Virus record (IMG/VR): IMGVR_UViG_3300021959_000109
Span: 1-41,079 of that record
Direction: 5' to 3' (one strand)
DNA length: 41,079 nucleotides
From: a virus
Shown here: piece after piece, positions 891 through 23,765 of the stretch
Layout: the number at the start of each line of letters is the position of its first letter
Numbering within the stretch: the stretch's first letter is position 1
Translations under genes and position numbers: made by a program
The notes under the pieces: model-generated
Database searches by the model: none
Told to the model about the DNA's origin: nothing
Seen by the model: only the letters and a program-made list of their open reading frames with translations

Positions 891-2441
891 TTAATAATAT
901 CCACCGCTGCGTTGTCTCCAATACTGCGGTTCTTCCGGTTCATCAGTGGGTAACCGGATAAACCCACCTTGCCTAAAACGCATCAGAGCCATAACCGTCG
1001 AGTCCACGAGGTCATCATTACTCATAAACGGGAATCCTGCAATCTCTTCTACAACTTCTTCTGCCCACCGTGTCTGTGGCACCCATACGAGTTCGGACGC
1101 TATTATGTCCGCTACGGAGTTTAAACGCGCTGTTTTGTCCCCCGACCCCCTATGTGGGGTGTACTCCGATATCGGCAAGCCCATACGCCGCATCTCTTGA
1201 TATAAGGCCACGCCAGAGCTTTTCTTCTCCACGATGAACGAATCAGGCTCCCAATCCCTATACTCGTCCATAGCAAGCTCTTTAAGCTCTGGAAACTCCA
1301 TACGGCGCTTTATGCTGTTTAACAATATAATATTGTAGTTGTTTGTGTGCTCGTTCAGGAACACTCCCCACGTGGTGAGTGCTGTATAGTCTGCGCGGTT
1401 GTGCTTCTCGGCTGCTGCGTCGAGCGACATTATGATGTATTCACACGGAGGCGGGCTTTCCTCAGTCCACTCCTGCCACCACTCACGCTTAACAATAGCT
1501 GCTTCTTCAGCGGTGGGTTGTTGTTGGTACTGAGCGTTCCACTGGAATGTAGGCATCGACGCCTTAGTTCGTAACAGGGCGTCCAGATCAAAGAACTCAG
1601 GCCACAAGGGCTTCTGTACCTCTTTCTTCGTTTTTTTGCTCATAACGTCCAGTATGGCTGGGAACTCGACCACCTCATACTGATCTGAGCGTTCGTTCTG
1701 CGCCATATCCCGCACAACACGACCCGTCAGGTCGTCCATGTGCCAACGCGTCTGGATTATCGCAACCCGTCCACCGGGCATTAAACGTGTTCGCGCACCG
1801 AATGTGAACCACTCGTAGGCTTTTTCAAAGACTTCAAAGTTCCCGTTGATAACATCTTGTTCAGAGTGGGGATCATCAACCAAGAGGAGGTCAGCACCCC
1901 GCCCAGCAAGAGCAGACCCAATACCACACGCATAATATTCACCTCCTACATTGGTGTTCCATCGTCCCGCTGACTTACTATCCTGCGCTAATGATGTGGT
2001 AGGAAATATAGAGCGATACTGGTCTGTAGCGATCAAGTTACGCACTTTACGACCAAAATCCACCGCGAGGTCCGTGGTATGGGACACCATCATCACCTTT
2101 TTAGTGGGGTTTCGCCCCAAAAACCATGCAGGATAAAAGATCGAAACAAGCTGTGATTTACCATGTCTAGGGGGTATATTCACGCACACACGGTCCTTAT
2201 CGCCCCGCTCAATACCCATGAGCATATTAGCCAGTATGCGGTGGTGCTTACCAACTATAAAGTCAGGCATCATCAGCTTACAAAACTCTATCAAATCGTC
2301 ATGTGCAGACTTGTTTGCCGTCCGATTATGCAGCTCATCGACCATTTTATCAATCTCGGCCACCTCATCAACACTAAACGAGTCCAGATTAGCCAACATC
2401 AGCTCAATCTCTTCGTCCGTGAAGTCCAACGGCTTATTCAT
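891..2441 (-). CDS. terL: Terminase large subunit (packaging ATPase and nuclease)
   Basis: This is the motor that pumps DNA into the prohead and cuts the concatemer. At 516 residues it has the usual family length. The ATPase half shows a Walker A-like P-R-H-G-K-S-Q at residues 91-97 and Walker B L-L-L-V-D-D at 185-190. The C-terminal RNase H-like nuclease has acidic residues at D341 (I-I-M-S-L-D), E405 (F-I-V-E-K-K) and D477/D480 (D-D-L-V-D). Both halves look intact. The start overlaps the end of the upstream small-subunit gene by 8 bp, which suggests translational coupling, and the portal gene follows. All three would be transcribed leftward from the promoter near 3063-3090. No insertion or frameshift is visible. 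Confidence 0.95.
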   Translation of the reverse strand: MNKPLDFTDEEIELMLANLDSFSVDEVAEIDKMVDELHNRTANKSAHDDLIEFCKLMMPDFIVGKHHRILANMLMGIERGDKDRVCVNIPPRHGKSQLVSIFYPAWFLGRNPTKKVMMVSHTTDLAVDFGRKVRNLIATDQYRSIFPTTSLAQDSKSAGRWNTNVGGEYYACGIGSALAGRGADLLLVDDPHSEQDVINGNFEVFEKAYEWFTFGARTRLMPGGRVAIIQTRWHMDDLTGRVVRDMAQNERSDQYEVVEFPAILDVMSKKTKKEVQKPLWPEFFDLDALLRTKASMPTFQWNAQYQQQPTAEEAAIVKREWWQEWTEESPPPCEYIIMSLDAAAEKHNRADYTALTTWGVFLNEHTNNYNIILLNSIKRRMEFPELKELAMDEYRDWEPDSFIVEKKSSGVALYQEMRRMGLPISEYTPHRGSGDKTARLNSVADIIASELVWVPQTRWAEEVVEEIAGFPFMSNDDLVDSTVMALMRFRQGGFIRLPTDEPEEPQYWRQRSGGYY

Positions 2442-3030
2442 CGTCGTCGAACCCGAACTCTTCGTCTATGTCAACGGCCTGACCCTCTAACACCACCGCG
2501 TCTTCCACGTCTGGCTCGGGGTTTATGAGCTTTGTGAGCTTAGTACGCAGCTTTTCCTTGATGTCATCGGTAGTTTGGTGCGTAATAGTGACCTCAGACT
2601 TCTCCGCAAACAGCCCAACGTCCGAAATTTTGCCCAACAGCTCCAACGCACGTATCCTTATGCGTGCATCAGGGTTGTCCGACTCTTCTATAAGTTTATT
2701 CGTAACCAAATGGCGTAACTGAACCGAAGATTCGACTACAGAATGACCAAAATCTTTCAAAATCTTGTCTGTCAGCAGCAAAGTTGCAGGTGTGAGCTTT
2801 GATACCCGTGACGCCGTAGCCTGTTTAGACGTACCTTCTGGGTCTTCTGCGTAAGAAGTAGCTAAAGCAGCCGCAACATCCTTATCATTACTGTCTACAT
2901 CTATGTCTAATCCATGATGAGAAAGGAGTTTTGCAGTCTCGGCAGCGGCAGATGCCCTTACCGTCAGGTCTACCACGTCGGGTAGCTCGTCTATAGGGAT
3001 ACTTACATCAGGTTCTAGGTGCAGAGACAT
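2434..3030 (-). CDS. Probable terminase small subunit
   Basis: This 198-residue protein lies directly upstream of the large terminase gene and overlaps it by 8 bp, the standard place for the small subunit that recognises the packaging site. The sequence is mostly helical and charged, with a central region around residues 65-150 (K-L-T-P-A-T-L-L-L-T-D, then R-I-R-A-L-E-L-L-G-K-I-S-D-V-G-L-F) that could form helical DNA-binding and oligomerisation segments. The C-terminus is highly acidic (ending D-D-D-E). Catalytic motifs are neither expected nor seen. The assignment rests mainly on position and general character, because small terminases diverge strongly. The ATG at 3030 has no clear Shine-Dalgarno sequence. 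Confidence 0.75.
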   Translation of the reverse strand: MSLHLEPDVSIPIDELPDVVDLTVRASAAAETAKLLSHHGLDIDVDSNDKDVAAALATSYAEDPEGTSKQATASRVSKLTPATLLLTDKILKDFGHSVVESSVQLRHLVTNKLIEESDNPDARIRIRALELLGKISDVGLFAEKSEVTITHQTTDDIKEKLRTKLTKLINPEPDVEDAVVLEGQAVDIDEEFGFDDDE

Positions 3031-3062
3031 AGATTTTCGCAGGTTGTTGGCCGATTTTGCCG

Positions 3063-3090
3063 ATTATATAGAAAAAAAATTTTTTATCAA
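3063..3090 (-). promoter_or_regulatory. Strong sigma70-like promoter for the packaging operon
   Basis: Read on the minus strand, TTGATA (3085-3090) is followed by 16 bases and a perfect TATAAT (3063-3068). The spacer is an A/T run. The start of transcription would be near 3056, about 25 bases before the small terminase ATG. It is the best-scoring -10 box I saw in the window and points only into the minus-strand packaging genes. Confidence 0.7.
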
Positions 3091-3106
3091 GGAACCTTAC
3101 TTTTTT

Positions 3107-3142
3107 GGGGTGGGGGGTATCCCTGTGAGGAGGGGTGGGGGG
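3107..3142 (+). repeat. Duplicated G-rich tract (possible G-quadruplex)
   Basis: The 11-mer GGGGTGGGGGG occurs exactly at 3107-3117 and again at 3132-3142, giving four runs of at least four G on the plus strand within 36 bases. It sits between the two divergent promoters. A G-quadruplex is an inference from base composition only. Confidence 0.5.
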
Positions 3143-3150
3143 TCTGGATT

Positions 3151-3180
3151 TTGAAAAAATGGGGATTATTCGTGTAGAAT
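3151..3180 (+). promoter_or_regulatory. Putative sigma70-like promoter for the isolated gene at 3384
   Basis: TTGAAA (3151-3156), an 18-base spacer and TAGAAT (3175-3180) face rightward. Transcription would begin near 3187, leaving a leader of about 200 bases that carries the palindromes at 3244-3253 and 3262-3279. Both boxes are one or two bases off consensus, so this is weaker than the divergent promoter at 3063-3090. Confidence 0.5.
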
Positions 3181-3243
3181 AGTATTTATAGAGTAGTGCG
3201 GAGTCCCATATGTGAGCGTTGGGGGTAGGGGGCGGGTATGCCT

Positions 3244-3279
3244 GCTAATTAGCGATATTGAGTTAGTAAGCCTGCTAAC
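3244..3279. repeat. Palindrome pair: GCTAATTAGC and the 18-bp GTTAG...CTAAC site
   Basis: GCTAATTAGC (3244-3253) is a perfect 10-bp palindrome. GTTAGTAAGCCTGCTAAC (3262-3279) is the first member of a dispersed 18-bp inverted repeat family found at least 13 times in the plus-strand early region. Both lie in the leader of the gene at 3384, consistent with operator sites. Function is inferred. Confidence 0.7.
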
Positions 3280-3383
3280 TGCTAGCATCCTAAGACACAC
3301 GTCTACATATCTGCTATAACTATTACATCGGACGAGGCAACACGCCGCGGGATCGATTAACATTTACCTTGAAAGGGTACACC

Positions 3384-4007
3384 ATGACTAAAAAAGCAAA
3401 CACAACCGACGCCATCGCAACCGACGCGCAACGCTCTAATATGCAGGCTGCAGCGCTTGCCGCGCATAAGGCCATTGATAAAGCGGTCAAAGCAACGCTG
3501 GATAAAGACAAGCTTGCCCTCGCATGGCGCGACATGGTTGCGGAAACATATGGCAATTATAAATATGCAACCGCGCCATCAGGCACTGTTACCAACGCGC
3601 ACAAGCCTGCATTCGTTGCGATAAAAGAAGACGCGTTTATCGCTAAGCACGGCGCGGATGCGCTGACCTTTGCCAATGATCCAACCATTGGCAGCGCTGC
3701 CAAAATGAAAACGGGCAAGTTTCGCGGCAAGACTAAGAAGTATGTTCAAGCACAAAAGAATGTACCGCTTAAACAATTACGCGACGCCGTGACGGTTGCG
3801 GAAAAGAACTTGGAAGCGGGCAAGAAGTCAGGCACGCGTACCAAAAAACAAAACGTCGATACCGTCGCCAATGCGCTGCAGACTATTGCAAACCTGCTCA
3901 AAAAAGATCTCAAAGATCTGGATAACACGACGACGGCGCAACAACGCAACTGGCTGGCAACGGTTGTTAAGAACGCCAAGAAAAACCAAGGCTTCAAATT
4001 GAAGTAA
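3384..4007 (+). CDS. Lysine- and alanine-rich protein of unknown function
   Basis: The product has 207 residues. I chose the ATG at 3384 because GAAAGG lies about 8 bases upstream; an in-frame TTG at 3369 would add five residues. The protein is rich in Lys, Ala and Thr, strongly basic in its second half (residues 110-207), and has no membrane segment or cysteine cluster. A central part around 85-125 (T-F-A-N-D-P-T-I-G-S, then K-T-G-K-F-R-G-K-T-K-K) could bind nucleic acid. I do not recognise the family. The gene stands alone between divergent packaging genes and the repeat-rich region, with its own promoter and a strong terminator. A lone, separately controlled gene next to a likely origin could be an early or DNA-binding protein, but that is inference. 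Confidence 0.8.
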   Translation: MTKKANTTDAIATDAQRSNMQAAALAAHKAIDKAVKATLDKDKLALAWRDMVAETYGNYKYATAPSGTVTNAHKPAFVAIKEDAFIAKHGADALTFANDPTIGSAAKMKTGKFRGKTKKYVQAQKNVPLKQLRDAVTVAEKNLEAGKKSGTRTKKQNVDTVANALQTIANLLKKDLKDLDNTTTAQQRNWLATVVKNAKKNQGFKLK

Positions 4008-4015
4008 TACTAATC

Positions 4016-4044
4016 GGGTCGGCCTTCGGGTCGGCCCTTTTTTT
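4016..4044 (+). terminator. Rho-independent terminator with UUCG tetraloop
   Basis: A 9-bp stem (GGGTCGGCC, 4016-4024, with GGTCGGCCC, 4029-4037, including two G-U pairs) closes a TTCG loop with a C-G pair and is followed by seven T (4038-4044). It begins 8 bases after the stop codon of the gene at 3384-4007 and insulates it from the downstream region. Confidence 0.93.
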
Positions 4045-4209
4045 ATGTCTTCTAAATGGAAGCCAGTTCTCTGAGCAGCTCTGAGCCAAACGCGCACGCC
4101 TGTTAGTAAGCCTACTAACTCGCCCTCCCTAAATTAAACCAGTTCTCTGAGTAGTGTTGAGCCACACCTCTCCATATAAACTACCACACGTAGACCCGAG
4201 GAGCTGGGA

Positions 4210-4646
4210 CGTAACATTACACGCACGCAGTTAGCAGCACTACTAACTCACCCCGCCTAATTTAAACCAGTTCCCGAAGTAGCTCTGAGGCAAACGTAAC
4301 ATTACAAACCCCGATTTTGCTAAGTCATTGAAAACAAAGTAATGTTTCAAATGTTACGTCAATGTTACGTTTTTAAACCCTTGTTTTTTAGGCTAAGTCT
4401 TTGATTTTATTATAATGTTTCTATTGTTACTAATGTTACGTTCAAATACACAAACAATATTTCGTCTTCGAGGAGTTCTCCTGTACGAGTTTTTTCTAAA
4501 CTACACAGACATCGGTTTCAAACCTTCCTCACCGCCAAAAGCGTAACTTTGTAACTTTCCTTTCATTTCAATAACCTACAAGCCGTTTTCGCGTAACTTT
4601 AGCGTAACTTTAGCGTAACTTTAGCCCACACCTCCCGTAACATTAG
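4210..4646. repeat. Iteron-like array of CGTAAC[A/T]TTA repeats
   Basis: CGTAACATTA-like units occur on the plus strand at 4210-4220, 4295-4305 and 4636-4646, and inverted (ATGTTACG) at 4351-4358, 4362-4369 and 4433-4440. The related GCGTAACTTT lies at 4541-4550, with GTAACTTT at 4551-4558. GCGTAACTTTA stands three times in exact head-to-tail tandem at 4591-4601, 4602-4612 and 4613-4623. Copies in both orientations in a gene-free, partly AT-rich segment suggest initiator or regulator binding. Confidence 0.75.
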
Positions 4647-4755
4647 CCCCGAGTTAGTAACCTTGCTAACACCCTGCCCCTAAATAAACCCAGACATACG
4701 TTCAAATACCACTGATGCTAAGCTACGATTGTAGGGTGCTAAGGAAACATTCTCC

Positions 4756-4784
4756 TTGACATCTACGCTCACATGTGGTATACA
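4756..4784 (+). promoter_or_regulatory. Near-consensus sigma70 promoter for the early operon
   Basis: A perfect TTGACA (4756-4761), a 17-base spacer and TATACA (4779-4784) face rightward. Transcription would start near 4791, giving a leader of about 100 bases that includes the 36-bp repeat at 4849-4884. It probably drives the long plus-strand operon beginning at 4894. A host-type polymerase would read it, as expected for immediate-early phage genes. Confidence 0.8.
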
Positions 4785-4848
4785 CGCAGAGGTTTTCAGA
4801 AACCTGCAACGAACTGTGTGTGTCAAGCCGACATGCACGATCACTAAA

Positions 4849-4884
4849 TTAACCGCTGCTTGTTAGCAGCCTTACTAACTGAAA
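4849..4884 (+). repeat. 36-bp leader repeat, copy 1, with 18-bp palindrome
   Basis: This 36-bp segment is identical to 6692-6727. Its core is the palindrome GTTAGCAGCCTTACTAAC (4862-4879), and its end GAAA overlaps the Shine-Dalgarno region of the gene at 4894. An exact copy in front of two different genes implies a shared leader function, either a DNA operator or an mRNA hairpin next to the ribosome binding site. Confidence 0.85.
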
Positions 4885-4893
4885 GGTAAAACA

Positions 4894-5100
4894 ATGAAGA
4901 AAGCATACTGTGTCGGATGCGGCGAACAATACCCGCTGCGTCGTAAGACTGAACTGGGCATTAACTTCTGCCTCGACTGTGGAGACTTCCACGCTGTGCG
5001 TGCCCGCGAGAACTGGTGCCGAGTGCCGTTGCCGAAACAAGGTTACACGCTGGTCACACGCAAGTCTGACCTGCTGCACCTAAACCAGAAGGTACGTTGA
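4894..5100 (+). CDS. Small zinc-ribbon-like protein
   Basis: The 68-residue product has two C-x-x-C knuckles (C6/C9 and C26/C29) separated by 16 residues, the pattern of a zinc ribbon. The rest is basic. No enzyme signature is present. Zinc ribbons this small usually bind nucleic acid or a partner protein. GAAAGG 7-12 bases upstream supports the ATG at 4894. It is the first gene of the long rightward operon, after the promoter at 4756-4784 and the 36-bp leader repeat. The next gene starts one base after its stop codon. The exact family is not recognised. Confidence 0.8.
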   Translation: MKKAYCVGCGEQYPLRRKTELGINFCLDCGDFHAVRARENWCRVPLPKQGYTLVTRKSDLLHLNQKVR

Positions 5101-5101
5101 T

Positions 5102-5377
5102 ATGCCGATATCAAATCAACATGGGACATCGCACGAGGTAAAGCTGGCGCACAAGTCAGAGGCTGCGCTGCGTGTCGTGAAGATGTTCCTGACAAGCTAC
5201 ATGGGCGAGCCTTGTTACAAGCCGTGGAGCGAGAAAGGTTCGGGCGATCTTCGCAAGGACTTGGAAATATCTGCAGACGGTGACGACAACACTTGTGGGT
5301 GCCCATGCTGTGATGCGTGGGCAGCGTTTGAACATATCGTAAGACTTAATGAAGAAGCAAATGGAGAACTACAATGA
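5102..5377 (+). CDS. Small cysteine-containing protein of unknown function
   Basis: A 91-residue protein beginning one base after the previous stop codon and overlapping the next gene by 4 bp (ATGA), so translation is probably coupled on both sides. It has a cluster C-G-C-P-C-C (C65, C67, C69, C70) following an acidic D-G-D-D-N segment, and a further Cys at 38. This could bind a metal, but no complete known motif is evident. The N-terminal half is a predicted amphipathic helix (V-K-L-A-H-K-S-E-A-A-L-R-V-V-K-M-F). The family is not recognised; the coding call rests on operon packing and ordinary composition. Confidence 0.75.
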   Translation: MPISNQHGTSHEVKLAHKSEAALRVVKMFLTSYMGEPCYKPWSEKGSGDLRKDLEISADGDDNTCGCPCCDAWAAFEHIVRLNEEANGELQ

Positions 5378-6372
5378 ACAAGTTGAATGAAAACATCACC
5401 GCAGGTAGTAACGCTGCTAACAGCAAACCTCAAATTGACATGCCCTCAATGGCTTCGTCCACGATGGTCACCACGTTGAACATCGGCGTGTGGAGTGACG
5501 AGCGCAATGACCGTGCAGCGACAGCGCAGGTCACCGTGTCTAACAATGCGAGCGACAAAGCAGCCCGTGTTCAGAAGTTCTTGTTCGGTGGTAACTGCGC
5601 CGAATTGGAAGCGATCAAAGCGTTCACGAGTGAAGCACGTCGTGTGCACAAGTCGCTCACTGTGCCATGGGGTGACGGTGGCCCGCGTGCACTGGCTAAT
5701 TTGGCTATGCCCAACCACGTGAAAGTGATGAGCTTCTATGAGCAGGAGCACGCTAAAGCCGTAGACGCACTGGTGGCTGTGTGGAATGATCTGGTGATCG
5801 ACGCGCAGGTAAGCCTTGGTGATATGTATGACCCGAGCGAGTACCCGACATCCGAAGAGGTACGTAATCGGTTCTACTTCCGGTGTGGTTACGAGCCAAT
5901 GCCTCAGTCTGGTAACTTCCTCGCTGACATTGCGGACGAGAACGTGCGTGTGGCTGTCGAATCATGTGACCGCATGAATGAGTTTCGTATCCAGAATATG
6001 CTGCGTGATGTGTTCAACAATGTGTTCAAGATGTTGGGTAACATGTCCGAGCGTCTGGACTACACAGACACAGGTGAGACAGAGGAGTATCGGACGAAGC
6101 CGAGTAAAGCTAACCCCAACGGCAAAGTGATGACGCGTAAGGTCGGCGTGAAGAAGTTCCACGACACACTTGTGTCTAACGCGCTCGACGCTGCAGATCT
6201 CATGGCATTGTATATCCCCAACGATCCGGTGGTGCGTGATGCCAAGCGCAAGCTCGACGAGACCTTGCGTAACGTGACCGAGGATGACCTGCGTGGAGAT
6301 GGAGACCTGCGCAAGGACGTGAAACGTAACGTCGACGATGTGTTGGCGTCACTAGAAACGTTCGACATATGA
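5374..6372 (+). CDS. DUF3150-like phage protein, part of a MoxR/VWA module
   Basis: The 332-residue product resembles, from memory, the DUF3150 family of phage and bacterial proteins. The best-matching part is the middle (residues about 130-210: a W-N-D-L-V-I-D-A-Q-V helix, then D-M-Y-D-P-S-E-Y-P-T and R-F-Y-F). DUF3150 genes typically sit beside a MoxR-like ATPase and a VWA/metallopeptidase gene, and here those follow at 6740 and 7868. Its molecular role is not established. The protein is soluble and largely helical, with no cysteine cluster. The start overlaps the previous gene (ATGA). A variant of the 18-bp palindrome (GGTAGTAACGCTGCTAAC, 5404-5421) lies inside the early coding sequence. 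The family call is not verified by a profile search. Confidence 0.75.
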   Translation: MNKLNENITAGSNAANSKPQIDMPSMASSTMVTTLNIGVWSDERNDRAATAQVTVSNNASDKAARVQKFLFGGNCAELEAIKAFTSEARRVHKSLTVPWGDGGPRALANLAMPNHVKVMSFYEQEHAKAVDALVAVWNDLVIDAQVSLGDMYDPSEYPTSEEVRNRFYFRCGYEPMPQSGNFLADIADENVRVAVESCDRMNEFRIQNMLRDVFNNVFKMLGNMSERLDYTDTGETEEYRTKPSKANPNGKVMTRKVGVKKFHDTLVSNALDAADLMALYIPNDPVVRDAKRKLDETLRNVTEDDLRGDGDLRKDVKRNVDDVLASLETFDI

Positions 6373-6455
6373 TCCGCCACGTGATCGGGGCAGTGTGTAT
6401 ATTCTACACACTGTTCACCCTCCTGTGTATCGGCAATGTAACTGGCTTAGGATAA
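6369..6455 (+). CDS. Possible 28-residue membrane peptide
   Basis: A short frame starts with the ATG of an ATGA overlap with the preceding stop codon and ends two bases before the ATG at 6458. The peptide has a short basic N-terminus (M-I-R-H) and then a hydrophobic stretch of about 18 residues (V-I-G-A-V-C-I-F-Y-T-L-F-T-L-L-C-I-G), which would make one membrane helix. The stop-start overlap and the exact filling of the gap support translation. The length is too small for a family call. It could also be a chance frame. Confidence 0.45.
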   Translation: MIRHVIGAVCIFYTLFTLLCIGNVTGLG

Positions 6456-6457
6456 CC

Positions 6458-6676
6458 ATGACTGACAAAAACAAACTTGTGCACGAGCTTGCGGTCAAGT
6501 TCATAAAAGATCTGCCTGATGATCTGACTAACGGCACGATTTCTGTGGTGCTTGCTCAGGTATTGGCTTCGTACGCACAAGATGCCGAGGACGGGTTGGA
6601 TATCCTAGACTTAGCAGGGAACATATTTCTTGAATACATAGTCTCAATATCAACAGAGGGGCAAACATTACACTAA
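6458..6676 (+). CDS. Small acidic helical protein, unknown function
   Basis: The product has 72 residues. The ATG at 6458 is preferred over an upstream GTG at 6395 in the same frame: the upstream extension overlaps the candidate peptide gene and has poor composition, while AGGATAACC precedes 6458. The protein is helical and mildly acidic, with a hydrophobic C-terminal half (V-V-L-A-Q-V-L-A, then L-A-G-N-I-F-L-E-Y-I-V). No known motif is seen. It lies between the DUF3150-like gene and the ATPase gene of the same module. Confidence 0.65.
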   Translation: MTDKNKLVHELAVKFIKDLPDDLTNGTISVVLAQVLASYAQDAEDGLDILDLAGNIFLEYIVSISTEGQTLH

Positions 6677-6691
6677 CGACTACCTGACTAC

Positions 6692-6727
6692 TTAACCGCT
6701 GCTTGTTAGCAGCCTTACTAACTGAAA
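6692..6727 (+). repeat. 36-bp leader repeat, copy 2, with 18-bp palindrome
   Basis: Identical over 36 bp to 4849-4884. The palindrome GTTAGCAGCCTTACTAAC is at 6705-6722, 17 bases before the ATG of the ATPase gene. It lies in a 63-bp gap between genes, so it marks a second control point inside the early operon. No promoter-like boxes were seen next to it. Confidence 0.85.
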
Positions 6728-6739
6728 TGGAAAACTAAA

Positions 6740-7855
6740 ATGGAAAATGCAAACGCAACATATTCTTTGGACTTGGATCAAGCTGTAAATCTTATTGACG
6801 CAGTGGGTGCAGTACGTACTGTCATTGTCGAGGGTGGCATGGGCACGGGTAAAAGCTCAGGCATCAAGGCTAAGCTGAAAGTGAAACGCCCGCAGAATAC
6901 TCACATTGATTTTGACTGCACCAACAAAGACATTCAGGATCTGACAGCGCCACAGTTCAAGAAGAAGCTAGAGGAGCACATCTCTGACTATGTAGAGTTC
7001 GTGCCGAATGCAGAGTTGGGCGTGCACTTGGGTATCCCTGTGACTATTAACTTCGACGAGTTCAAGAAAGCGTCTGACCCCGTACGTAAAGGCGTACGCG
7101 CATTCATGTTGGAGCGTGAGATCTGTGGTGTACCTCTACCAGAGGGTAGCATCATCTACGGTACGTCTAACCTCAGTGAAGAAGGACTGGGTGACGTGCT
7201 GTTACCGCATCAGCGCAATGCGATTATCGTGGTGAGACTTAGTAAGTCTACTAACATCAAGTGGATCGAATGGGGTATCGCACAAGAGCCGCCCATGCAC
7301 TCATCTGTACTGGTGTACGCCAAGAACAATCCTCAACTTTTTGACTGCTTTACTCAGGTCAAGAACCCCGAGGACAACTTGGAGATCTATCACCCCAAAG
7401 ATCCATCGCGTCTGTCGTTTGTTACGCAGCGGTCGCTACACATTGCGTCCGACATACTGCACGCACGTGACAAGTATGGGTTGGATGACCACACCGTGAC
7501 TGCTGCACTTATTGGCTGTGTCGGTGCGTATGCTGGGCCGAACCTCATGGCAAGCGTGAAGCTGGGTGACAGACTGCCATCACTGGATGCCATCAAGCAA
7601 GATCCCATGGGCGCAGTCGTGCCTGACACTGCTGCAGCTACGTGCATGGTCGTGTTCCGTGCGCTCGCCTCTATCGAACGCGAGTGGGTTAACGAGTGGA
7701 TGACATACCTCATGCGTCTGGACACAGAGGCTCAGGGCATGTTCGTCAAAGGTGTCATAGCTAAAGACTACCCACGTCAATGGGTGGCTAATAACCCGAA
7801 GTTCCAACAATGGATGCTGGATAACAACTACGTCTTTTCAGCAGACCAAGCGTAA
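6740..7855 (+). CDS. MoxR-like AAA+ ATPase
   Basis: The 371-residue protein has a Walker A loop G-G-M-G-T-G-K-S-S (residues 32-40), a Walker B-like V-T-I-N-F-D-E-F (101-108) and a sensor-1 segment G-T-S-N (141-144), in the order of AAA+ ATPases. Such MoxR-type ATPases act as chaperones with VWA-domain partners to remodel or load cofactors into a target complex, and the partner gene follows 12 bp downstream. Together with the DUF3150-like gene this forms a conserved-looking three-gene module. The substrate in phages is unknown. A copy of the dispersed palindrome (7238-7255) lies inside the coding sequence and encodes L-S-K-S-T-N. The start follows the second 36-bp leader repeat. Confidence 0.88.
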   Translation: MENANATYSLDLDQAVNLIDAVGAVRTVIVEGGMGTGKSSGIKAKLKVKRPQNTHIDFDCTNKDIQDLTAPQFKKKLEEHISDYVEFVPNAELGVHLGIPVTINFDEFKKASDPVRKGVRAFMLEREICGVPLPEGSIIYGTSNLSEEGLGDVLLPHQRNAIIVVRLSKSTNIKWIEWGIAQEPPMHSSVLVYAKNNPQLFDCFTQVKNPEDNLEIYHPKDPSRLSFVTQRSLHIASDILHARDKYGLDDHTVTAALIGCVGAYAGPNLMASVKLGDRLPSLDAIKQDPMGAVVPDTAAATCMVVFRALASIEREWVNEWMTYLMRLDTEAQGMFVKGVIAKDYPRQWVANNPKFQQWMLDNNYVFSADQA

Positions 7856-7867
7856 GGAGAAGAACTA

Positions 7868-9058
7868 ATGCCTTTATGGTCAAATGAACTAACCGCAGAG
7901 CAGCGCCTGTCCAAAGCTCTCATTGCAATCATGGAAAGGGCACCCGCCATCGGCGGGGTTGCTATGGTGGGTAAACGTGTAGTCGACGAGGATACACCCA
8001 CCGCCTGCACTGATGGTCGTGACGAGTGGTATGGTCGGGCGTTTGTTGCGAAACAGAGTGACCCGCAGCTACGCTACTTGGTCATACACGAAGTCTTCCA
8101 CAAGATGTATCGACACCCGATAACGTGGCGTGACCTGTCCAAGAAGTGTCCGCAGATTGCGAACGAAGCATGTGACTATCATATCAATCTAAAGATCACA
8201 GATGAGTTTGGTAGTGGCGGGTTCGCTATCATGCCTGATGGTGGGCTGTATGACGTGCGGTTCCGTGGCATGAATGTGAAACAAATCTTTGATATCCTGT
8301 GGCAGGAGAACGGTGACCAGCCGCGCTCGAAGCAAGGTGGCAGTGGTGAAGGTGGTGATGGTGACATCGATTGGGAGAAAGCCAAGGAGCTAACCAAAGC
8401 CGAGGAAGCCGAGCTTGATCGTGAGATCGACGAAGCTATTCGCCAAGGTGACATCGTTGCAGGTAAGATGAAGGGTAACAAGAAGCTAGACGTGGATGAT
8501 CTGCTCAAGCCGAAAGTGAACTGGCGCGATCCTTTGCGTGAGTTCTGTGTGGATACATGCAGAGGTGCGAGCTACTCATCATATCGCAGACCTAATCGCC
8601 GTTACCTGCAGCAGGGTGTGTACATGCCAAGCGGTGTGACTGATATGGTGGGGGAACTGGTATTTGCTGCTGATACGTCCAGTTCGATTTTCGGTCGCCC
8701 GTTAGCAATGGTGCTAGCCGAGATGCAGAGTATTTGCACCATGGTCAATCCGTCACGTGTCCGCATACTGTATTGGGACACAGAGGTGTGTAAGGAAGAG
8801 ATCTACATGCCTGAAGACTATGACCAGCTTAGTAAGTCTACTAAGCCAAAGGGTGGCGGCGGCACTGACGTGCGCTGTGTACCTGCATACCTGCGTGCCA
8901 ATAACATCAACGCGCAGGCTGTCATTGTTCTGACTGACGGTGACTTGTGGGGTGGCTGGGGCGAGTGGACGTGGCCGCTGCTGTGGTGCATACTCGACAA
9001 CCCAAGCAAGATGCCGCCCGTTGGTAAGGTTATACACACTAACACAGGAGACATGTGA
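7868..9058 (+). CDS. Metallopeptidase-like plus VWA domain protein (DUF2201-like)
   Basis: The 396-residue protein has two parts. Residues 1-150 resemble a zincin domain: H-E-V-F-H (74-78) matches HExxH, and N-E-A-C-D-Y-H-I-N (99-107) fits the third-ligand region. After a Gly-rich, acidic linker (155-200), residues 262-380 form a VWA-like domain with an intact MIDAS: D-T-S-S-S (269-273), T333 in G-G-G-G-T-D, and D357 in L-T-D-G-D. This is the DUF2201 architecture as I recall it, usually encoded next to a MoxR ATPase, as here. Whether the zinc site is catalytic is unknown. TAAGGAG precedes the ATG. A palindrome copy (8828-8845) inside the VWA part encodes L-S-K-S-T-K. The next gene overlaps its stop codon (TGATG). 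Confidence 0.9.
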   Translation: MPLWSNELTAEQRLSKALIAIMERAPAIGGVAMVGKRVVDEDTPTACTDGRDEWYGRAFVAKQSDPQLRYLVIHEVFHKMYRHPITWRDLSKKCPQIANEACDYHINLKITDEFGSGGFAIMPDGGLYDVRFRGMNVKQIFDILWQENGDQPRSKQGGSGEGGDGDIDWEKAKELTKAEEAELDREIDEAIRQGDIVAGKMKGNKKLDVDDLLKPKVNWRDPLREFCVDTCRGASYSSYRRPNRRYLQQGVYMPSGVTDMVGELVFAADTSSSIFGRPLAMVLAEMQSICTMVNPSRVRILYWDTEVCKEEIYMPEDYDQLSKSTKPKGGGGTDVRCVPAYLRANNINAQAVIVLTDGDLWGGWGEWTWPLLWCILDNPSKMPPVGKVIHTNTGDM

Positions 9059-9237
9059 TGGCCGAGAATATGTTTGTAGACAACCCCTTCATCGCGTGCC
9101 CCGAGTGTGGTGGCGAAGGTCAAGTCACTGCAGAGCGAGCAGTATGTATGAGCAACGACAACCCCTACGGGTATCTGGAGGAGTACAAGCGCGAGTGCGA
9201 TAACTGCCACGGACTTGGGGAGATAGAGCGTGACTGA
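9058..9237 (+). CDS. DnaJ-type zinc-finger mini-protein
   Basis: The 59-residue product has two C-x-x-C-x-G-x-G motifs: C-P-E-C-G-G-E-G (C14, C17) and C-D-N-C-H-G-L-G (C47, C50). This is half of the four-repeat DnaJ zinc-finger, enough for one zinc site. Stand-alone copies are common in phages and may bind proteins or unfolded chains. The ATG at 9058 overlaps the stop codon of the VWA gene (TGATG), which favours it over the in-frame GTG at 9055. Its position suggests it belongs to the MoxR/VWA module. Confidence 0.82.
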   Translation: MAENMFVDNPFIACPECGGEGQVTAERAVCMSNDNPYGYLEEYKRECDNCHGLGEIERD

Positions 9238-9403
9238 GGTGAGTGACTTTATGCCCACACGTGTGGAGGAACTACTGGACGTGCTAGGTGTGCGTCCCGA
9301 TCCCAACGTTACCACTGCTGTCGATGCGGGTGAGCCGAAAGTGGAGCGAGACTTCACCTTCAAACAGGTACAACTGGACGAGAACGGGGAGCCGCCATGG
9401 TAG
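9230..9403 (+). CDS. Short acidic protein (57 residues), GTG start
   Basis: A frame with a GTG start at 9230 overlaps the stop of the zinc-finger gene and ends inside the start of the next gene (ATGGTAG). GGGGAGA at 9216-9222 is a good ribosome binding site for 9230. An in-frame ATG at 9251, also preceded by GAGGTGAG, would give 50 residues. The product has an N-terminal helix (V-E-E-L-L-D-V-L-G-V) and an acidic C-terminus ending E-P-P-W. It fills an otherwise empty 160-bp gap in a densely packed operon. The family is not recognised. Confidence 0.62.
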   Translation: MTEVSDFMPTRVEELLDVLGVRPDPNVTTAVDAGEPKVERDFTFKQVQLDENGEPPW

Positions 9404-9621
9404 AATACTTTACGATACTCATGCTGACATACAGCATCAGTGGGGAGACCTTGCAATCAAGCACGGTCTTTCCGAGCGCAGAAGCATGCGGCGATGCACT
9501 GCCTGCGTATTACGAACCCGTCTATGCGTTTGATAAGAATGCAATCGGGCAATGCAAGAAGACGGACGCAATGTCCGTAACAATTAAACCGAAACCAAGA
9601 CCAGACATGGAGAAGAACTAA
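9397..9621 (+). CDS. Small two-cysteine protein with hydrophobic N-terminus
   Basis: The 74-residue product begins with a hydrophobic segment (Y-F-T-I-L-M-L-T-Y) and has two cysteines (C31, C53) that could form a disulphide, around a part typical of small exported phage proteins of marine phages (S-T-V-F-P-S-A-E-A-C). The C-terminus is rich in Lys and Pro. The N-terminal segment is short for a signal peptide, so export is only a possibility. The gene overlaps the 3' end of the preceding frame, and its stop overlaps the next ATG (TAATGG). Confidence 0.65.
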   Translation: MVEYFTILMLTYSISGETLQSSTVFPSAEACGDALPAYYEPVYAFDKNAIGQCKKTDAMSVTIKPKPRPDMEKN

Positions 9622-10490: not shown

Positions 10491-10761
10491 AACATCTCAA
10501 GGGATACCCGATAACAGTATATACCGTGTTAAAGTAGACCCTGACACTAAATCTATCTCAATCTTCTGTTTTGGTAGTAATGCTATTGACAGGACAGTAA
10601 ACGACTTCTATATAGGTGTGGAAGACTTGCCAATATGGCTGCAGCGGAAGCTGAGCGTGCTGGCAGGTACAAGCCCAAAGCCACCCGAGCATGAGGTGGT
10701 AGGGGTCGGTAGGAGAATAGATGAGAATGTCTTTTGGGTCTATTACGGCGACGATAGTTAG
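10483..10761 (+). CDS. Hypothetical protein, 92 residues, similar in ending to its upstream neighbour
   Basis: The ATG at 10483 overlaps the end of the preceding gene by 8 bp and gives 92 residues. An upstream in-frame start at 10414 would only add low-quality sequence inside the preceding gene. The C-terminal part (L-P-I-W-L-Q-R-K-L-S-V-L, then G-V-G-R-R-I-D-E-N-V-F-W-V-Y-Y-G) parallels the end of the preceding protein (V-P-E-D-V-Q-R-K-V-A-V-L, then G-V-G-Y-K-F-N-D-T-M-F-Y-I-Y-A). This points to a partial tandem duplication of a C-terminal domain. Its function is unknown. Its stop codon lies inside a palindrome copy (10757-10774). Confidence 0.75.
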   Translation: MPKTSQGIPDNSIYRVKVDPDTKSISIFCFGSNAIDRTVNDFYIGVEDLPIWLQRKLSVLAGTSPKPPEHEVVGVGRRIDENVFWVYYGDDS

Positions 10762-10797
10762 TACACGTACTAATACGGAGGGCGGCTATTGCTGCCC
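10757..10797. repeat. 18-bp palindrome and adjoining GC-rich hairpin
   Basis: GTTAGTACACGTACTAAT (10757-10774) is a dispersed-palindrome copy that includes the stop codon of the upstream gene. Six bases on, GGGCGGC (10780-10786) pairs with GCTGCCC (10791-10797) around TATT. No T-run follows, so termination is uncertain. The hairpin may be a processing or pausing signal between genes. Confidence 0.6.
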
Positions 10798-10829
10798 TTC
10801 GAAGCCAGTTATTTTACAGGGGGATGAGC

Positions 10830-11787: not shown

Positions 11788-11797
11788 GAGAATGGCT

Positions 11798-14531: not shown

Positions 14532-16360
14532 TGGACCTGATAGCCCTAGATTTTGAAACGTACTACGACAAACAGTATTCCCTGTCGAAACTAACGACGG
14601 AGGAGTACATACGTGATGATCGTTTCGAAGTCATAGGGCTATCTGTAAAAATAAACAACGGCCCTACGCAATGGGCCGCTGGTGAGGAGGCCGCGGGCGA
14701 TTTGCTTGCGGCCACCGACTTTACCAATGCCGCAATACTCTGCCACAATACTATGTTTGATGGGGCTATACTGAGTTGGCATTACCAGATTAATCCAAAG
14801 ATGTGGCTGGACACGCTTTGCATGGGGCGTGCGTTACATGGCACGGAGCACAGCGTTGCGTTAAAAGCTCTCGCACAGAGGTACGGCGTAGGTGTTAAGG
14901 GCACCGAGGTCGCTGATGCCATGGGCAAGCGGATAGAAGACTTCGCCGCTGACGAGTTAGAACAGTATGGACGCTACTGTAGCAATGACGTGGATCTCAC
15001 AGTCGCCCTGTTTAGGTTGATGGCTAAGAAGTTCCCCAAAAAAGAATTACAGTTGATAGATCTGACGTTGCGTATGTTCATCGAACCGATGTTGGATTTA
15101 GATGAGGGGTTGCTTGAACAGCACCTAGAGGACACGCGGGATGCGAAAGACAAGTTACTAATAGCGGCGAATGTAGAAAAAGCCGATTTGATGAGCAACC
15201 AGAAGTTCGCAGACCTGTTACGGGGTTTAGGTGTAGAGCCGCCCACAAAGATCAGTCCGACTACAGGTAAAGAAGCGTTTGCTTTTGCTAAGTCAGACGA
15301 AGCGTTTAAGGCTCTCCACGAACACGAAGACGTACGTATACAGGCGCTTGTGGCTGCACGGTTAGGCAATAAGAGCACATTGGAAGAGACACGTACGCAG
15401 AGGTTTCTGAACATATCACGACGAGGACTGCTGCCAGTTCCCGTTCGCTACTACGCTGCGCACACAGGAAGGTGGGGTGGGTCAGACAAGATAAACCTGC
15501 AGAACTTACCGAGCCGTGGGCCGAACGGGAAGAAGTTAAAACGTAGCATCATCGCCCCCGAGGGGTATACACTGATTGACTGTGATAGCTCGCAGATCGA
15601 AGCACGGGTATTGGCATGGCTGGCGGGTCAGAATGATCTCACACAGGCGTTCGCAAGTGGTGATGACGTATACAAGCACATGGCGTCGACTATCTACAGT
15701 GTGGGTGTTGGTGATGTAAGTAAAGAACAACGCTTTGTTGGGAAGACTACGATCCTTGGCGCAGGTTATGGTATGGGCGCGGCAAAGTTCCAGATGCAGT
15801 TGAAGGGTATGGGTGTAGAGATACCTCTGGACGAAGCCAAGCGTATCATTGACATCTACCGGAGCGCAAACTCAGACATAAACGGGTTGTGGGCCGATGC
15901 ACAGGGTATGGTTAGAAACCTTGCTAACAGACATGTGATGAATTTCGGTAAAGCTGGGGTTATAAAAGTACACCCCGACAAATACGCACTGCAGTTACCG
16001 TCTGGTCTGTTGATGTATTACGAAGACTTGAAAGGCGAAAAAGAAAAAGACAGCGGGCGTATAGAATACTCATACAAAACCCGGCGGAGCCGAACCCGTA
16101 TATACGGTGGGAAGGTTGTTGAGAACGTGTGTCAAGGTATTGCACGTTGCATTATTGGTGAACAAATGCTAAGTATAGCTAGCAAGTACAAGGTAGTGCT
16201 AACTGTACACGATTCAGTTGTAGCCTGTGTTCTGGATGAAGAAGTCGACGAAGCTCAAGCGTACATAGAGAAGTGTATGAGCAAGACACCAGACTGGGCC
16301 GAAGGATTACCCGTCACCTGCGAGAGTGGTACAGGCAAATCATACGGGGATTGTGAATGA
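14531..16360 (+). CDS. Family A DNA polymerase with 3'-5' exonuclease domain
   Basis: The 609-residue replicative polymerase starts at the ATG at 14531, which overlaps the previous stop. The exonuclease shows D7/E9 (L-D-F-E-T), a C-H-N-T-M-F-D segment near 71-77, and Y-C-S-N-D-V-D near 148-154. The polymerase shows motif A D-S-S-Q-I-E-A-R (catalytic D352), motif B R401-x3-K405-x3-L409 followed by G-A-G-Y-G, and motif C H560-D561-S562. The residue equivalent to E. coli Pol I Phe762 is therefore Leu, a type frequent in marine virioplankton surveys. Motif C has Ser where most family members have Glu (HDE). There is no 5'-3' exonuclease domain. A palindrome copy (15911-15928) lies inside the gene. 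Confidence 0.96.
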   Translation: MDLIALDFETYYDKQYSLSKLTTEEYIRDDRFEVIGLSVKINNGPTQWAAGEEAAGDLLAATDFTNAAILCHNTMFDGAILSWHYQINPKMWLDTLCMGRALHGTEHSVALKALAQRYGVGVKGTEVADAMGKRIEDFAADELEQYGRYCSNDVDLTVALFRLMAKKFPKKELQLIDLTLRMFIEPMLDLDEGLLEQHLEDTRDAKDKLLIAANVEKADLMSNQKFADLLRGLGVEPPTKISPTTGKEAFAFAKSDEAFKALHEHEDVRIQALVAARLGNKSTLEETRTQRFLNISRRGLLPVPVRYYAAHTGRWGGSDKINLQNLPSRGPNGKKLKRSIIAPEGYTLIDCDSSQIEARVLAWLAGQNDLTQAFASGDDVYKHMASTIYSVGVGDVSKEQRFVGKTTILGAGYGMGAAKFQMQLKGMGVEIPLDEAKRIIDIYRSANSDINGLWADAQGMVRNLANRHVMNFGKAGVIKVHPDKYALQLPSGLLMYYEDLKGEKEKDSGRIEYSYKTRRSRTRIYGGKVVENVCQGIARCIIGEQMLSIASKYKVVLTVHDSVVACVLDEEVDEAQAYIEKCMSKTPDWAEGLPVTCESGTGKSYGDCE

Positions 16361-17312: not shown

Positions 17313-17330
17313 GTTAGTACCCGTACTAAC
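17313..17330. repeat. Perfect 8-bp-arm copy of the dispersed palindrome
   Basis: GTTAGTAC (17313-17320), CC, GTACTAAC (17323-17330) is the most symmetrical member of the family. It sits alone in the 30-bp gap between the basic protein gene and the helicase gene. GAGGAG follows at 17331-17336 as the ribosome binding site for the GTG at 17343. Confidence 0.85.
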
Positions 17331-20939: not shown

Positions 20940-23765
20940 ATGGACACAAAAAGTTTTTTAGGGAGTGTACTAAGCGACGAGGGTTATTATTGCCTGTTCG
21001 CCGCTAACGCTGCCAAAGACCACCGACAGCAGAAATTCTACACTTCGATAGATACTATGCAAGACGCGGCGGTTACGTATGACGAGGACGGGTACGATGT
21101 ATATTTCGCACTAGCCACGTTTACACAGAATAATTCACGTAAACAAGATAACGTGAACTCGCTACGGTCCTTCTTCCTTGATTTGGATTGCGGGCCAAGC
21201 AAAGACTACGCAGACCAGAAGACAGCTATAGCAGATGTACGTAAGTTCTGCACGGCGTTGTCACTGCCTACTCCTGCTATGGTAAACTCTGGTAGAGGAG
21301 TGCATGTATACTGGCCGCTAACCGAGGCCGTGCCACGGAGACAGTGGACGCGAGTTGCTGAAACATTGAAGCAGCGGTGCGCCGAACATAAACTGCGGGC
21401 CGATGCAGGGGTGACTGCGGATTCTTCGCGGGTACTACGTTTTCCTGACACGCACAACTACAAACAAGATCCGCCGTTAGAGGTGAAGTCGTACGGTGTC
21501 GATCTACCAAAGGCCACGTCGTTCACTGAGTTTGCTAGCCTGCTGCATGGCAAGCCTGTGGAGATATCTGAAGCTCCAGAGGAGGTTGCAGGGGTAGAGG
21601 CACCTGTTGCGTTGTTCGACAAATTGGCGAGTAACAAACAATGGTCGTTCAAAGACATACTAACAAAAACGGCTGATGGGCGTGGGTGTGAACAGATACG
21701 CAGGTACTTAGAAGATCGTAACTCTGCATCCGAACCGTTGTGGCGAGGTATATTAGCAACGTTGAAAAACTGTGGCGATAGTTCTTTGAAGATCGCGCAT
21801 AGTATATCTCGTGGGTACGAAGGTTACACCGAAGAAGAGACAACGAATAAGTGGCACGCCTTAGAAGCGGACCGCGCTTACCGATGTTCTACGTTTGATG
21901 AGGCTACCCCAGACGTGTGTATAAACTGCATACATCAGGGCAAAATACGAAAGCCTCTTGATCTTGGCGAGCGCGTTGCCGAGGCCGAAGAAGAGGAAGA
22001 GATTGAAGCGCCAGACCCGCAAGGTAAAACGCTTACAATACCGACATACCCTAAACCTTATTTTCGTGGCCGAAACGGTGGTGTGTATATACGATCTACT
22101 GTGGATGGGGAGGTGAACGAAGAGTGCCTTTACCACCATGATCTTTACGTTACGCGGTTACTGCACGATGCTTCCCTTGGAGGTTACGTGGTCGTGTTTA
22201 ACCTACACCTTCCGCACGATGGTGTGCGGGAGTTTACTATCCCCATGGCGTCAATAACTTCAAAAGAAGAGTTTAGAAAAGCCGTAGCAACTAATGGTGT
22301 AACAGCGTGGGGCGGTACTTTGGAGAAGCTAATGCGATATACAACTAGATGGATTGATGAGTTACAGATGGCTAATGCAGCGGATGAAGCGCACCTGCAA
22401 TTTGGGTGGACCAATAAAGATATGAAGGAGTTTGTCTTAGGTGACACACTCGTGCGTGGTACGGACGTGGATTACAACCCTCCGTCAAAGAAGACAGCAG
22501 GACTGTTTCCTGCGTTTGTGCCAGAGGGCACACAGGAAGAGTTCTTGGACTGTTTGAAGTTCTATAACCGTCCGCGTTTTGAACTGCACCAGTTTGTTAT
22601 CGGCACAGGGTTCGGCTCAATCTTGATGCCGCTCACAGGTCAGAACTGTATGGGCCTGCATCTGTTCGGTGGGTCGGGTGTCGGCAAGACAACTGCTATG
22701 CGTGCAGCCTTGGGTATATTCGGCAACCCCGAAGAACTGATGAACCACCACAAAGACACAACAAACTCACGTATGAACAGGGCGGAGGTAATGAAGAACG
22801 TACCACTGTCTTCTGACGAGATGACGAACATCACTCCAGACTTCGCATCTTCTTACGTGTACGAGTTGTCAGGCGGTCGACAGAAGAACCGTATGTCCAG
22901 CAACGGTAACACAGAGCGGTTCAGGGGTGACCCGTGGCAACTGATCGCTGTGAGTTCGGCTAACTCCAGTATTTGGCAAATCCTGAGCCGAGACAAAGAG
23001 TTTCCAGAAGCAGAGATGTTACGCATGTTGGAGATATCTGTAGATAAGTCATTGAAAGATCCGTCGTTGAAGGCAGAGACAGACGCACTGTTTGAGCGGA
23101 TAACAAAGAACTACGGGTGGGTTGCGGTACGCTACATTCAGTACATTATAAACCATAGAAGGCAGGTAGAAGAGTGGTTGACTGAGTTACGCCGTAACTT
23201 GGACAAGAGCGCAGGTCTGGCACAGGAGCACAGGTTCTGGTCTGCAGGGTGCGCCGCGTCCCTTACAGGTTTATACATTGCAAAGAAGTTAGGGTTTATA
23301 GATTGGGATCTAAAGCAGGTTCGCAAGTGGTTAGTTGCACTACTTATATCCCGTAAGAACCATCTGCAGGATGCAACCGCCTCCGTGCACGAGACTTTAA
23401 ACAACTATGTGTTTGAGAACCATGCGTCTATTCTGCAGATCCGCGGGAGCTACGACATGCGCTCAGCCAATAACAACGGTCTTGACGAGCTTGTTATACC
23501 CGAAGCGTCTCCTCGCGGTGAATGGGTGGGCCGATACGAAACCGATACAAAGAAGCTGTACCTATTACCTAAGCCGCTGAAGAAGTGGTGCACGAACCAG
23601 CAGGTACTATACGAACACTTCATACGTGACCTGCAAGACGAGATGGGTGCGAAGCGTGTGTCGATACGTTTAGGTAAAGGTACACATCTAAACCTACCTG
23701 CAGCGCGTACGATATCAGTAGACTTCCATGACATGAAGGACGACGACAGTGCGGAGAGTTCTTAA
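20940..23765 (+). CDS. Primase-helicase: AEP-type primase fused to DUF927-like ATPase
   Basis: The 941-residue fusion has an archaeo-eukaryotic primase domain: F-F-L-D-L-D-C-G (D81, D83), S-G-R-G-V-H-V-Y-W (H122) and then D-S-S-R-V-L-R-F-P-D. A middle part around 320-330 carries cysteines (C-I-N-C-I-H). The C-terminal half resembles DUF927 helicases: Walker A G-G-S-G-V-G-K-T at 577-584, then S-S-D-E-M-T-N as Walker B region and A-V-S-S-A-N-S-S as sensor. It should synthesise primers and unwind DNA for the family A polymerase. The start at 20940 has only a weak ribosome site. It follows a partial terminator, so its level may be lower than SSB. Confidence 0.92.
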   Translation: MDTKSFLGSVLSDEGYYCLFAANAAKDHRQQKFYTSIDTMQDAAVTYDEDGYDVYFALATFTQNNSRKQDNVNSLRSFFLDLDCGPSKDYADQKTAIADVRKFCTALSLPTPAMVNSGRGVHVYWPLTEAVPRRQWTRVAETLKQRCAEHKLRADAGVTADSSRVLRFPDTHNYKQDPPLEVKSYGVDLPKATSFTEFASLLHGKPVEISEAPEEVAGVEAPVALFDKLASNKQWSFKDILTKTADGRGCEQIRRYLEDRNSASEPLWRGILATLKNCGDSSLKIAHSISRGYEGYTEEETTNKWHALEADRAYRCSTFDEATPDVCINCIHQGKIRKPLDLGERVAEAEEEEEIEAPDPQGKTLTIPTYPKPYFRGRNGGVYIRSTVDGEVNEECLYHHDLYVTRLLHDASLGGYVVVFNLHLPHDGVREFTIPMASITSKEEFRKAVATNGVTAWGGTLEKLMRYTTRWIDELQMANAADEAHLQFGWTNKDMKEFVLGDTLVRGTDVDYNPPSKKTAGLFPAFVPEGTQEEFLDCLKFYNRPRFELHQFVIGTGFGSILMPLTGQNCMGLHLFGGSGVGKTTAMRAALGIFGNPEELMNHHKDTTNSRMNRAEVMKNVPLSSDEMTNITPDFASSYVYELSGGRQKNRMSSNGNTERFRGDPWQLIAVSSANSSIWQILSRDKEFPEAEMLRMLEISVDKSLKDPSLKAETDALFERITKNYGWVAVRYIQYIINHRRQVEEWLTELRRNLDKSAGLAQEHRFWSAGCAASLTGLYIAKKLGFIDWDLKQVRKWLVALLISRKNHLQDATASVHETLNNYVFENHASILQIRGSYDMRSANNNGLDELVIPEASPRGEWVGRYETDTKKLYLLPKPLKKWCTNQQVLYEHFIRDLQDEMGAKRVSIRLGKGTHLNLPAARTISVDFHDMKDDDSAESS

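Follow-up and report, generated by a model that had tools for sequence, protein, structure and literature searches.

A candidate SaPI/P4-like replication origin in an uncultured aquatic phage and its putative primase-helicase initiator

Introduction

The alpha protein of phage P4 unites a primase, a helicase and an origin binder in one polypeptide. The excerpted text of PMC6092414 describes PICI origins as two iteron sets on either side of an AT-rich region; that of PMC7581432 assigns iteron recognition by SaPI Rep to the C-terminal domain and reports that the C-terminus of Cch2 in isolation binds the putative origin. Among the matches listed by a literature search on iterons associated with primase-helicases, no such phage appeared.

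In this study, the 41,079-base virus record IMGVR_UViG_3300021959_000109, derived from an uncultured aquatic phage, was analyzed over its full length (hereafter, the window). We consider it probable (about 0.74) that the segment at 4210-4646 is a SaPI/P4-like phage replication origin, the iterons of which are read by the phage's own 941-aa primase-helicase. If so, a large group of uncultured aquatic phages would gain a concrete candidate both for its origin and for its initiator.

Results

Genomic context of the array

A nucleotide search of a phage collection with the window gave no match. IMG/VR was shown to hold near-identical and syntenic contigs, the longest of which reach 58-65 kb, and the window is therefore a phage fragment. 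Genes for a large terminase subunit and a DNA polymerase, both encoded by the record itself, speak for a phage rather than an island; no tRNA was found in the record, and the isolates nearest by terminase were HTVC027P, HTVC023P and DSL-LC04.

The plus-strand genes extend from 4894 to about 24 kb and represent the early and replication functions, namely, a MoxR-type ATPase, a VWA-like protein, DNA polymerase, exonuclease, helicase, a Gp2.5-like protein and the primase-helicase, while the rest of the window, including the terminase and very long proteins, is encoded on the minus strand. The array occupies a divergent segment flanked on one side by a terminase-small-subunit-like gene (weak match to PHROG 51, E 0.0033) and on the other by the first early gene. 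The features of the locus are summarized in Table 1. The stretch at 4013-4050, containing the terminator-like stem, showed 95% identity in L017, L019 and L049. Sites resembling the possible early promoter were recognized by eye in L017, L022, L025 and L083; the promoter scan, which demands T as the last base of the second hexamer, did not list the site in the window. Separately, an early module kept in relatives was observed at 5374-9058 (a DUF3150 relative, an ATPase and a VWA-like metallopeptidase-domain protein, DUF2201), and two very long minus-strand frames, 24047-30517 (2156 aa) and 34376-40357 (1993 aa), probably encode virion proteins.

Table 1. Features of the candidate origin locus and associated genes in the window
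Feature	Position	Strand	Basis or remark
Palindrome GTTAG-N8-CTAAC, 5' of the 207-aa gene	3262..3279	.	
207-aa protein, proposed early-gene regulator	3384..4007	+	subfamily follows palindromes, not iterons
Intrinsic-terminator-like stem, 3' of the 207-aa gene	4016..4044	+	region count 3 vs 2.4 in shuffles
Palindrome GTTAG-N8-CTAAC	4102..4119	.	
Iteron array CGTAACWTT (reverse AAWGTTACG)	4210..4644	both orientations	10 exact copies and a one-mismatch copy
Palindrome GTTAG-N8-CTAAC	4230..4247	.	
AT-rich centre, candidate unwinding region	4300..4499	.	GC 26-32%
Forward box 1, GCTAAGTCATTGAAAACAAA	4319..4338	+	kept in syntenic relatives
Forward box 2, GCTAAGTCTTTGATTTTATT	4392..4411	+	direct repeat; equivalent place in relatives
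Inverted box TCAATAACCTA, reverse TAGGTTATTGA	4568..4578	-	two mismatches to TAAGTCATTGA; inverted repeat
Palindrome GTTAG-N8-CTAAC	4653..4670	.	
Possible early promoter TTGACA-17-TATACA	4756..4784	+	read by eye
Palindrome GTTAG-N8-CTAAC, just 5' of ATG at 4894	4862..4879	.	
Palindrome GTTAG-N8-CTAAC, just 5' of ATG at 6740	6705..6722	.	
Palindrome GTTAG-N8-CTAAC, within the DNA polymerase gene	15911..15928	.	
Palindrome GTTAG-N8-CTAAC, just 5' of helicase start at 17343	17313..17330	.	
941-aa primase-helicase, proposed initiator	20940..23765	+	PHROG, Pfam, model, structural matches
C-terminal ~140 residues (801-941), varying with iteron type	23340..23762	+	comparisons, model

Iteron array

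Ten exact copies of CGTAACWTT, seven forward and three reverse, were located (starts 4210+, 4295+, 4350-, 4361-, 4432-, 4542+, 4592+, 4603+, 4614+ and 4636+). As a chance test, 2000 mononucleotide shuffles of 4046-4890 gave a mean of 0.02 copies and at most 2, and the rest of the 41-kb window contained only two more (24506 and 24774); the array recognized in a preliminary description of this DNA is thus real. Its count of "at least eleven" units is valid only with one mismatch allowed, since the eleventh, TGTAACTTT at 4550+, deviates from the exact motif at one position. The three exact 11-bp tandem copies noted at 4591-4623 are present. The segment had also been called AT-rich and gene-free: it is indeed free of genes, from the end of the 207-aa gene at 4007 to 4894, whereas AT-richness is confined to its middle, with a GC content of 26-32% in the 100-bp windows across 4300-4499 and of 40-51% in the others between 4000 and 4899. 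The cumulative GC skew, proposed there as a check, displayed its minimum at 4.5-5.5 kb and its maximum at about 24 kb; because both extremes fall where the gene strand changes, the skew cannot distinguish an origin from transcription, and it was rejected as origin evidence.

The preliminary description missed two further kinds of repeats that this segment contains, namely, the boxes TAAGTCATTGA/TAAGTCTTTGA and palindromes of the form GTTAG-N8-CTAAC. In the comparison with a near twin of the window (L158), the iterons exhibited 2 substitutions among 98 columns, each falling on the free A/T position, the boxes 0 in 59, and the remaining columns 18 in 690 plus a 33-nt gap, such that by rate the iteron columns were no more conserved than the rest (2/98 vs 18/657).

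Mirror architecture in relatives

The relatives were shown to share a common plan, in which a forward box TAAGTCATTGA(AAACAAA) precedes two or three iterons; then come another forward box with iterons after it, a stretch rich in AT, and an inverted half composed of inverted iterons, an inverted box and further inverted iterons. Among all 39 intervals, a forward box was present in 36 and both orientations in 30, a count biased by the fact that many of the intervals had been fetched by the box itself. The frequency was hence determined in the 17 intervals found independently of the box (the window and 16 loci from protein queries), allowing up to two mismatches to the 11-mer: 14 of them contained a forward box, 11 contained two or more, and 13 contained both forward and inverted boxes, as compared with 0/17 having both for the reversed 11-mer as control. 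The most distant syntenic group (L050-L052) had no recognizable forward box. In L109, L139 and L021, the second forward box was an exact copy of the first, 63 bases apart, and in other contigs it often ended in TTTTAAA or TTTCAAA.

The iteron letters differed by lineage (TGTTACG in the window; TGTTCCA, TGTTCCG, TGTACCA, TGTACCG, TGTT[GA]CA and others elsewhere), the iteron and palindrome patterns having been defined after the sequences had been read. Absence of the repeats from replicating relatives had been named as an observation against an origin; the more distant relatives indeed have no array with the exact letters, while the position, number and arrangement of the iterons are kept with other letters. 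The boxes TAAGTCNTTGA may represent a second origin element that is much more conserved, perhaps a site for a host DNA-bending protein or a primer start. Across the wider primase-helicase family, only 5 of 24 records contained the strict 18-base box (up to two mismatches), indicating that the box drifts.

The primase-helicase and its structural model

Although the preliminary description saw no known initiator nearby, the window encodes a primase-helicase resembling SaPI Rep and SCCmec Cch (Table 1). The 941-aa protein consists of an AEP primase N-terminus, a DUF927-type helicase and a predicted winged-helix C-terminus. The structural model was of moderate confidence (mean pLDDT 72, pTM 0.45). 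Its top match (Foldseek, VIA-align) was SCCmec Cch (5dgk, E 1e-16, Z 29.8, model residues 368-935), followed by SaPIBov1 Rep (8tch, E 1e-14, Z 25.5, 370-940), both with large rmsd values of 14-16 A, and the N-terminus matched AEP primases. In the C-terminal part, the model predicted the order strand-strand-helix-helix-strand-strand (E864-867, E872-875, H877-886, H891-902, E905-910 and E921-928). A sequence search of the PDB with this C-terminus gave no match, and VIA-align, which barely tests that part, listed for it neither a P4 domain nor any other winged-helix domain. No Rep_3-type initiator was identified by Pfam among the ten window proteins scanned, including all six annotated-size genes within 2434-7855. 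As for its distribution, 597 of the best 600 candidate stretches listed encoded a relative of the primase-helicase, and the enzyme was recovered in 13 of the 24 syntenic records.

Coupling of iteron letters to the C-terminus

To relate the enzyme to the iterons, six close primase-helicases carrying three iteron types were compared (TGTACCA, L207 and L209; TGTTCCA, L208 and L210; TGTTCCG, L211 and L212), and L214, L216 and L217, which break off ahead of the C-terminus, were left out. Within residues 801-941, the three same-iteron pairs ranked first to third of the 15 possible pairs for fixed differences (8, 6 and 3; the next had 1). Their combination was also the best of the 15 three-pair arrangements (17 vs 9). 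The six sequences had been picked as the close clade, and the conservative chance level is 1 in 15. The same pairing ranked first more weakly within residues 391-800 (12 vs 8) and third within residues 1-390, the density of fixed differences being 17 per 141 residues in the C-terminal part vs 6 per 390 at the N-terminus. The L208/L210 pair had stood out before their common TGTTCCA was read.

Four of the eight differences marking TGTACCA fell in the predicted wing strands (908, 923, 925 and 928). Residue 923 was W in 8/8 labelled TGTTCC records, belonging to three divergent clades, and in 0/6 labelled with other iterons. Taken as a strict rule, with W923 present if and only if the iterons are TGTTCC, the association broke down in L246, which has V and mostly TGTTCC. 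With the residue-923 prediction set before fetching, L266 (D, mainly ATGTTCT) agreed and L295 (D) was mixed; no array was seen in the five W923 records fetched for a blind test.

Since the iteron letters and the C-terminus change together, these comparisons suggest that the primase-helicase reads the iterons. The two could also covary through joint inheritance or recombination, with no binding involved, given that the comparison comprises six sequences only and that the two segments could have been exchanged in a linked manner. This account appears unlikely: the array and the C-terminus are separated by 16 kb containing mosaic genes, and the differences concentrate in one domain, half of the TGTACCA-specific ones in the predicted wing strands.

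An improbable reading, likewise, is that the array is a regulator-bound operator or enhancer cluster serving divergent early and late promoters, and no origin. It would suit the location of the array in a divergent intergenic region 5' of the possible early promoter at 4756-4784, as well as the boxes seen by eye shortly 5' of promoter-like sequences in some unrelated viruses. Against it, the iteron type tracks the C-terminus of a replicative primase-helicase, and iteron sets around an AT-rich centre are, in the excerpted text of PMC6092414, typical of SaPI/PICI origins.

The designation of the segment as a probable replication origin is supported by both the architecture conserved in syntenic relatives and the coupling of the iterons to the C-terminal domain. 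In the origin mechanism that we propose for 4210-4646, the C-terminal winged helix of the primase-helicase would bind the iterons, the enzyme would load onto each of the two inverted halves, facing opposite ways, and melt the AT-rich centre, and unwinding and priming would then start at both forks. A mechanism of this kind has been proposed for phage P4 alpha and for SaPI Rep and SCCmec Cch2. The natural series of iteron and C-terminal-domain pairs makes SaPI/P4-like initiator recognition directly testable by swapping.

Palindromes and the 207-aa protein

The approximately 18-bp palindromes occurred in the window in 8 exact copies vs 0.1 in shuffles, and in 14 vs 0.95 with up to one mismatch. 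All 14 were confined to the early region (3262-20160), several of them directly 5' of start codons. The 207-aa protein is basic (38 K+R, 18 D+E) and belongs to no known family, and the predicted fold of a protein of this type (L020 and nine relatives) was not interpretable (mean pLDDT 56). A gene was present at its position in 37/37 usable intervals, that is, the 39 intervals minus L061 (in which the ORF is of a different kind) and L146 (which has no ORF). These genes form subfamilies too diverged for a good alignment, and profile comparison suggested distant kinship of most.

The subfamilies F1-F7 matched seven palindrome types one to one in 37/37 contigs, corresponding to about seven independent pairs because many contigs are near-duplicates. 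In contrast, the iterons cross-assorted: F2 occurred with TGTTCCG (6), TGTACCA (4), TGTTCCA (2) and TGTTACA (1), F3 with TGTACCA (6), TGTACCG (2) and TGTTCCA (2), and a single iteron type was also seen with several subfamilies. Out of sample, in records fetched for another purpose, two of three tests came out as predicted: G045 combined the palindrome GTTAGTG..CACTAAC with an F4 protein (72% identity) and G036 the palindrome TTAGTC with an F6 protein (E 7e-11), while G038 carried TTAGGGA..TCCCTAA as in F2, yet encoded F4-like proteins.

The preliminary description had offered the protein at 3384 as a possible new initiator, and that the array is an origin served by this protein would accord with its position adjoining the array, its basic character and its lack of a known family. 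The one-to-one match to the palindromes, borne out in G045 and G036 and missed in G038, together with the cross-assortment of the iterons, makes this quite unlikely, and the protein was rejected as the initiator. Because its subfamily tracks the palindromes and the iterons do not track the subfamily, it is better read as the palindrome partner; it probably binds the palindromes and controls the early genes as a separate, independent pair. The palindromes and the 207-aa-type genes look like an undescribed regulatory system that is quick to diversify. Finally, a packaging (pac) site for the adjacent terminase small subunit, as the nearby gene with the weak match might suggest, is very improbable, given that L017, L020, L021, L022 and L046 encode terminase-small-subunit-like proteins 57-60% identical to that of the window beside different iterons and that the covariation is with the primase-helicase.

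The box beyond these phages

The 19-mer CTAAGTCATTGAAAACAAA, taken from forward box 1, was detected in 112 viral stretches, as opposed to 2 for the reversed 19-mer as control, and also in 35 bacterial and archaeal genome stretches (counted without a reversed control). Many copies adjoin other repeats, such as GCGGAAG, GTGGTTCA, GGTGTCA and TGTACCA. Proximity of the box to tRNA-like sequences or integrase genes was also observed in some viruses and bacterial genomes (L072, L089, L132, L137, L174 and L183). The 81 unrelated viral loci with the box were grouped into 42 flank clusters, and for 30 of these one ORF per cluster was scanned. In 11 of the 30 (L060, L062, L145, L159, L161, L104, L070, L117, L055, L089 and L151), a primase or replicative helicase lay within 4 kb of the box, a proportion that is suggestive only, because large ORFs were chosen for the first ten and the comparison has no random-locus control. 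A DNA polymerase was found in 3 (L086, L100 and L119), and something else or nothing in 16. Loci combining the box with tandem repeats, several of them by unrelated primase-helicase genes (L062, L104, L145, L161, L060 and others), are candidate origins. At the genome loci, no primase was found in the ten of 35 scanned (one large ORF per locus, on one side), the ORFs being mostly host genes and one integrase.

The reverse of the box, TTTCAATGACTTA, fits the IHF consensus, WATCARNNNNTTR, at all but one position; IHF alone is insufficient to explain the box, because GAC within N4 is conserved as well. A search of the open literature for the string TAAGTCATTGA returned only unrelated papers.

These distributions raise the tentative possibility, which we hold to be rather less than even, that CTAAGTCATTGAAAACAAA is a general origin box of many unrelated replicons, near-constant in sequence and combined with lineage-specific iterons that are read by each element's own primase-helicase, and that in these phages the 207-aa protein and palindromes are a second such pair, exchanged independently. 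A conserved host factor would then read the box, or the box would serve as a primer start, and the initiator and iterons would be swappable as key and lock while the box stays constant. If functional, the box would serve as a sequence tag by which to locate origins in those mobile elements that lack an annotated initiator.

Discussion: comparison with known systems

The mycobacteriophage stoperators and start-associated sequences are the nearest counterpart of the palindromes. Like the palindromes, they are numerous short sites scattered over part of a phage genome, several of them just 5' of early-gene starts. The stoperators are bound by a phage repressor (PMC9283540, PMC3203893). The palindromes of the window and its relatives differ in that their letters change with one neighbouring gene family.

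The candidate origin itself agrees with SaPI/PICI origins in several respects. As in the description excerpted from PMC6092414, iteron sets lie around an AT-rich stretch, in the window at 4210-4440 and 4542-4644 around 4300-4499; the AT-rich trough also contains three reverse iterons, and the relatives are alike in this. A Rep-like initiator helicase is likewise encoded, as the window protein resembles SaPIBov1 Rep, albeit in a moderate model with large rmsd. In SaPI/PICI, iteron recognition is assigned to the C-terminal domain (excerpted texts of PMC7581432 and PMC6092414); for the window protein, it is proposed from the covariation of the iterons with the C-terminus. On the other hand, SaPI/PICI elements are islands, whereas the window belongs to a phage with extra conserved boxes, and primase and helicase, joined in one chain in the window protein, are so joined only sometimes in PICIs. 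SCCmec Cch provides the best structural match to the primase-helicase; Cch2, in contrast, pairs with a separate polymerase, while the window protein has its AEP primase fused N-terminally.

The P4 record (L199) likewise encodes a primase, gene product alpha, and its annotated 8-bp ori type 1 repeats occur in both orientations, like the iterons of the window. In comparison with the P4 alpha family, AEP primase and helicase domains were found in the window protein, and a C-terminal winged helix is predicted by the model. In P4, the origin has two separate parts, ori and crr, and is without the box: P4 gave no match to TAAGTCATTGA within one mismatch, and of its two matches with two mismatches, one sits close to attP, beyond the annotated crr, and the other lies within the ori type 2 repeats, so that the box was rejected as a P4 ori/crr element. 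In L062, L145 and L161, a primase- or AAA_25-type gene ends less than 200 bases ahead of the box, just as crr comes after alpha in P4. In SaPI, PICI and P4 crr, the origin stands beside the gene, whereas in the window, a linear fragment, the array at 4.2-4.6 kb and the gene at 20.9-23.8 kb are 16 kb apart. With its fused primase, distant origin, extra boxes and residence in a phage instead of an island, the system is a variant of the SaPI/P4 type and not a member of it.
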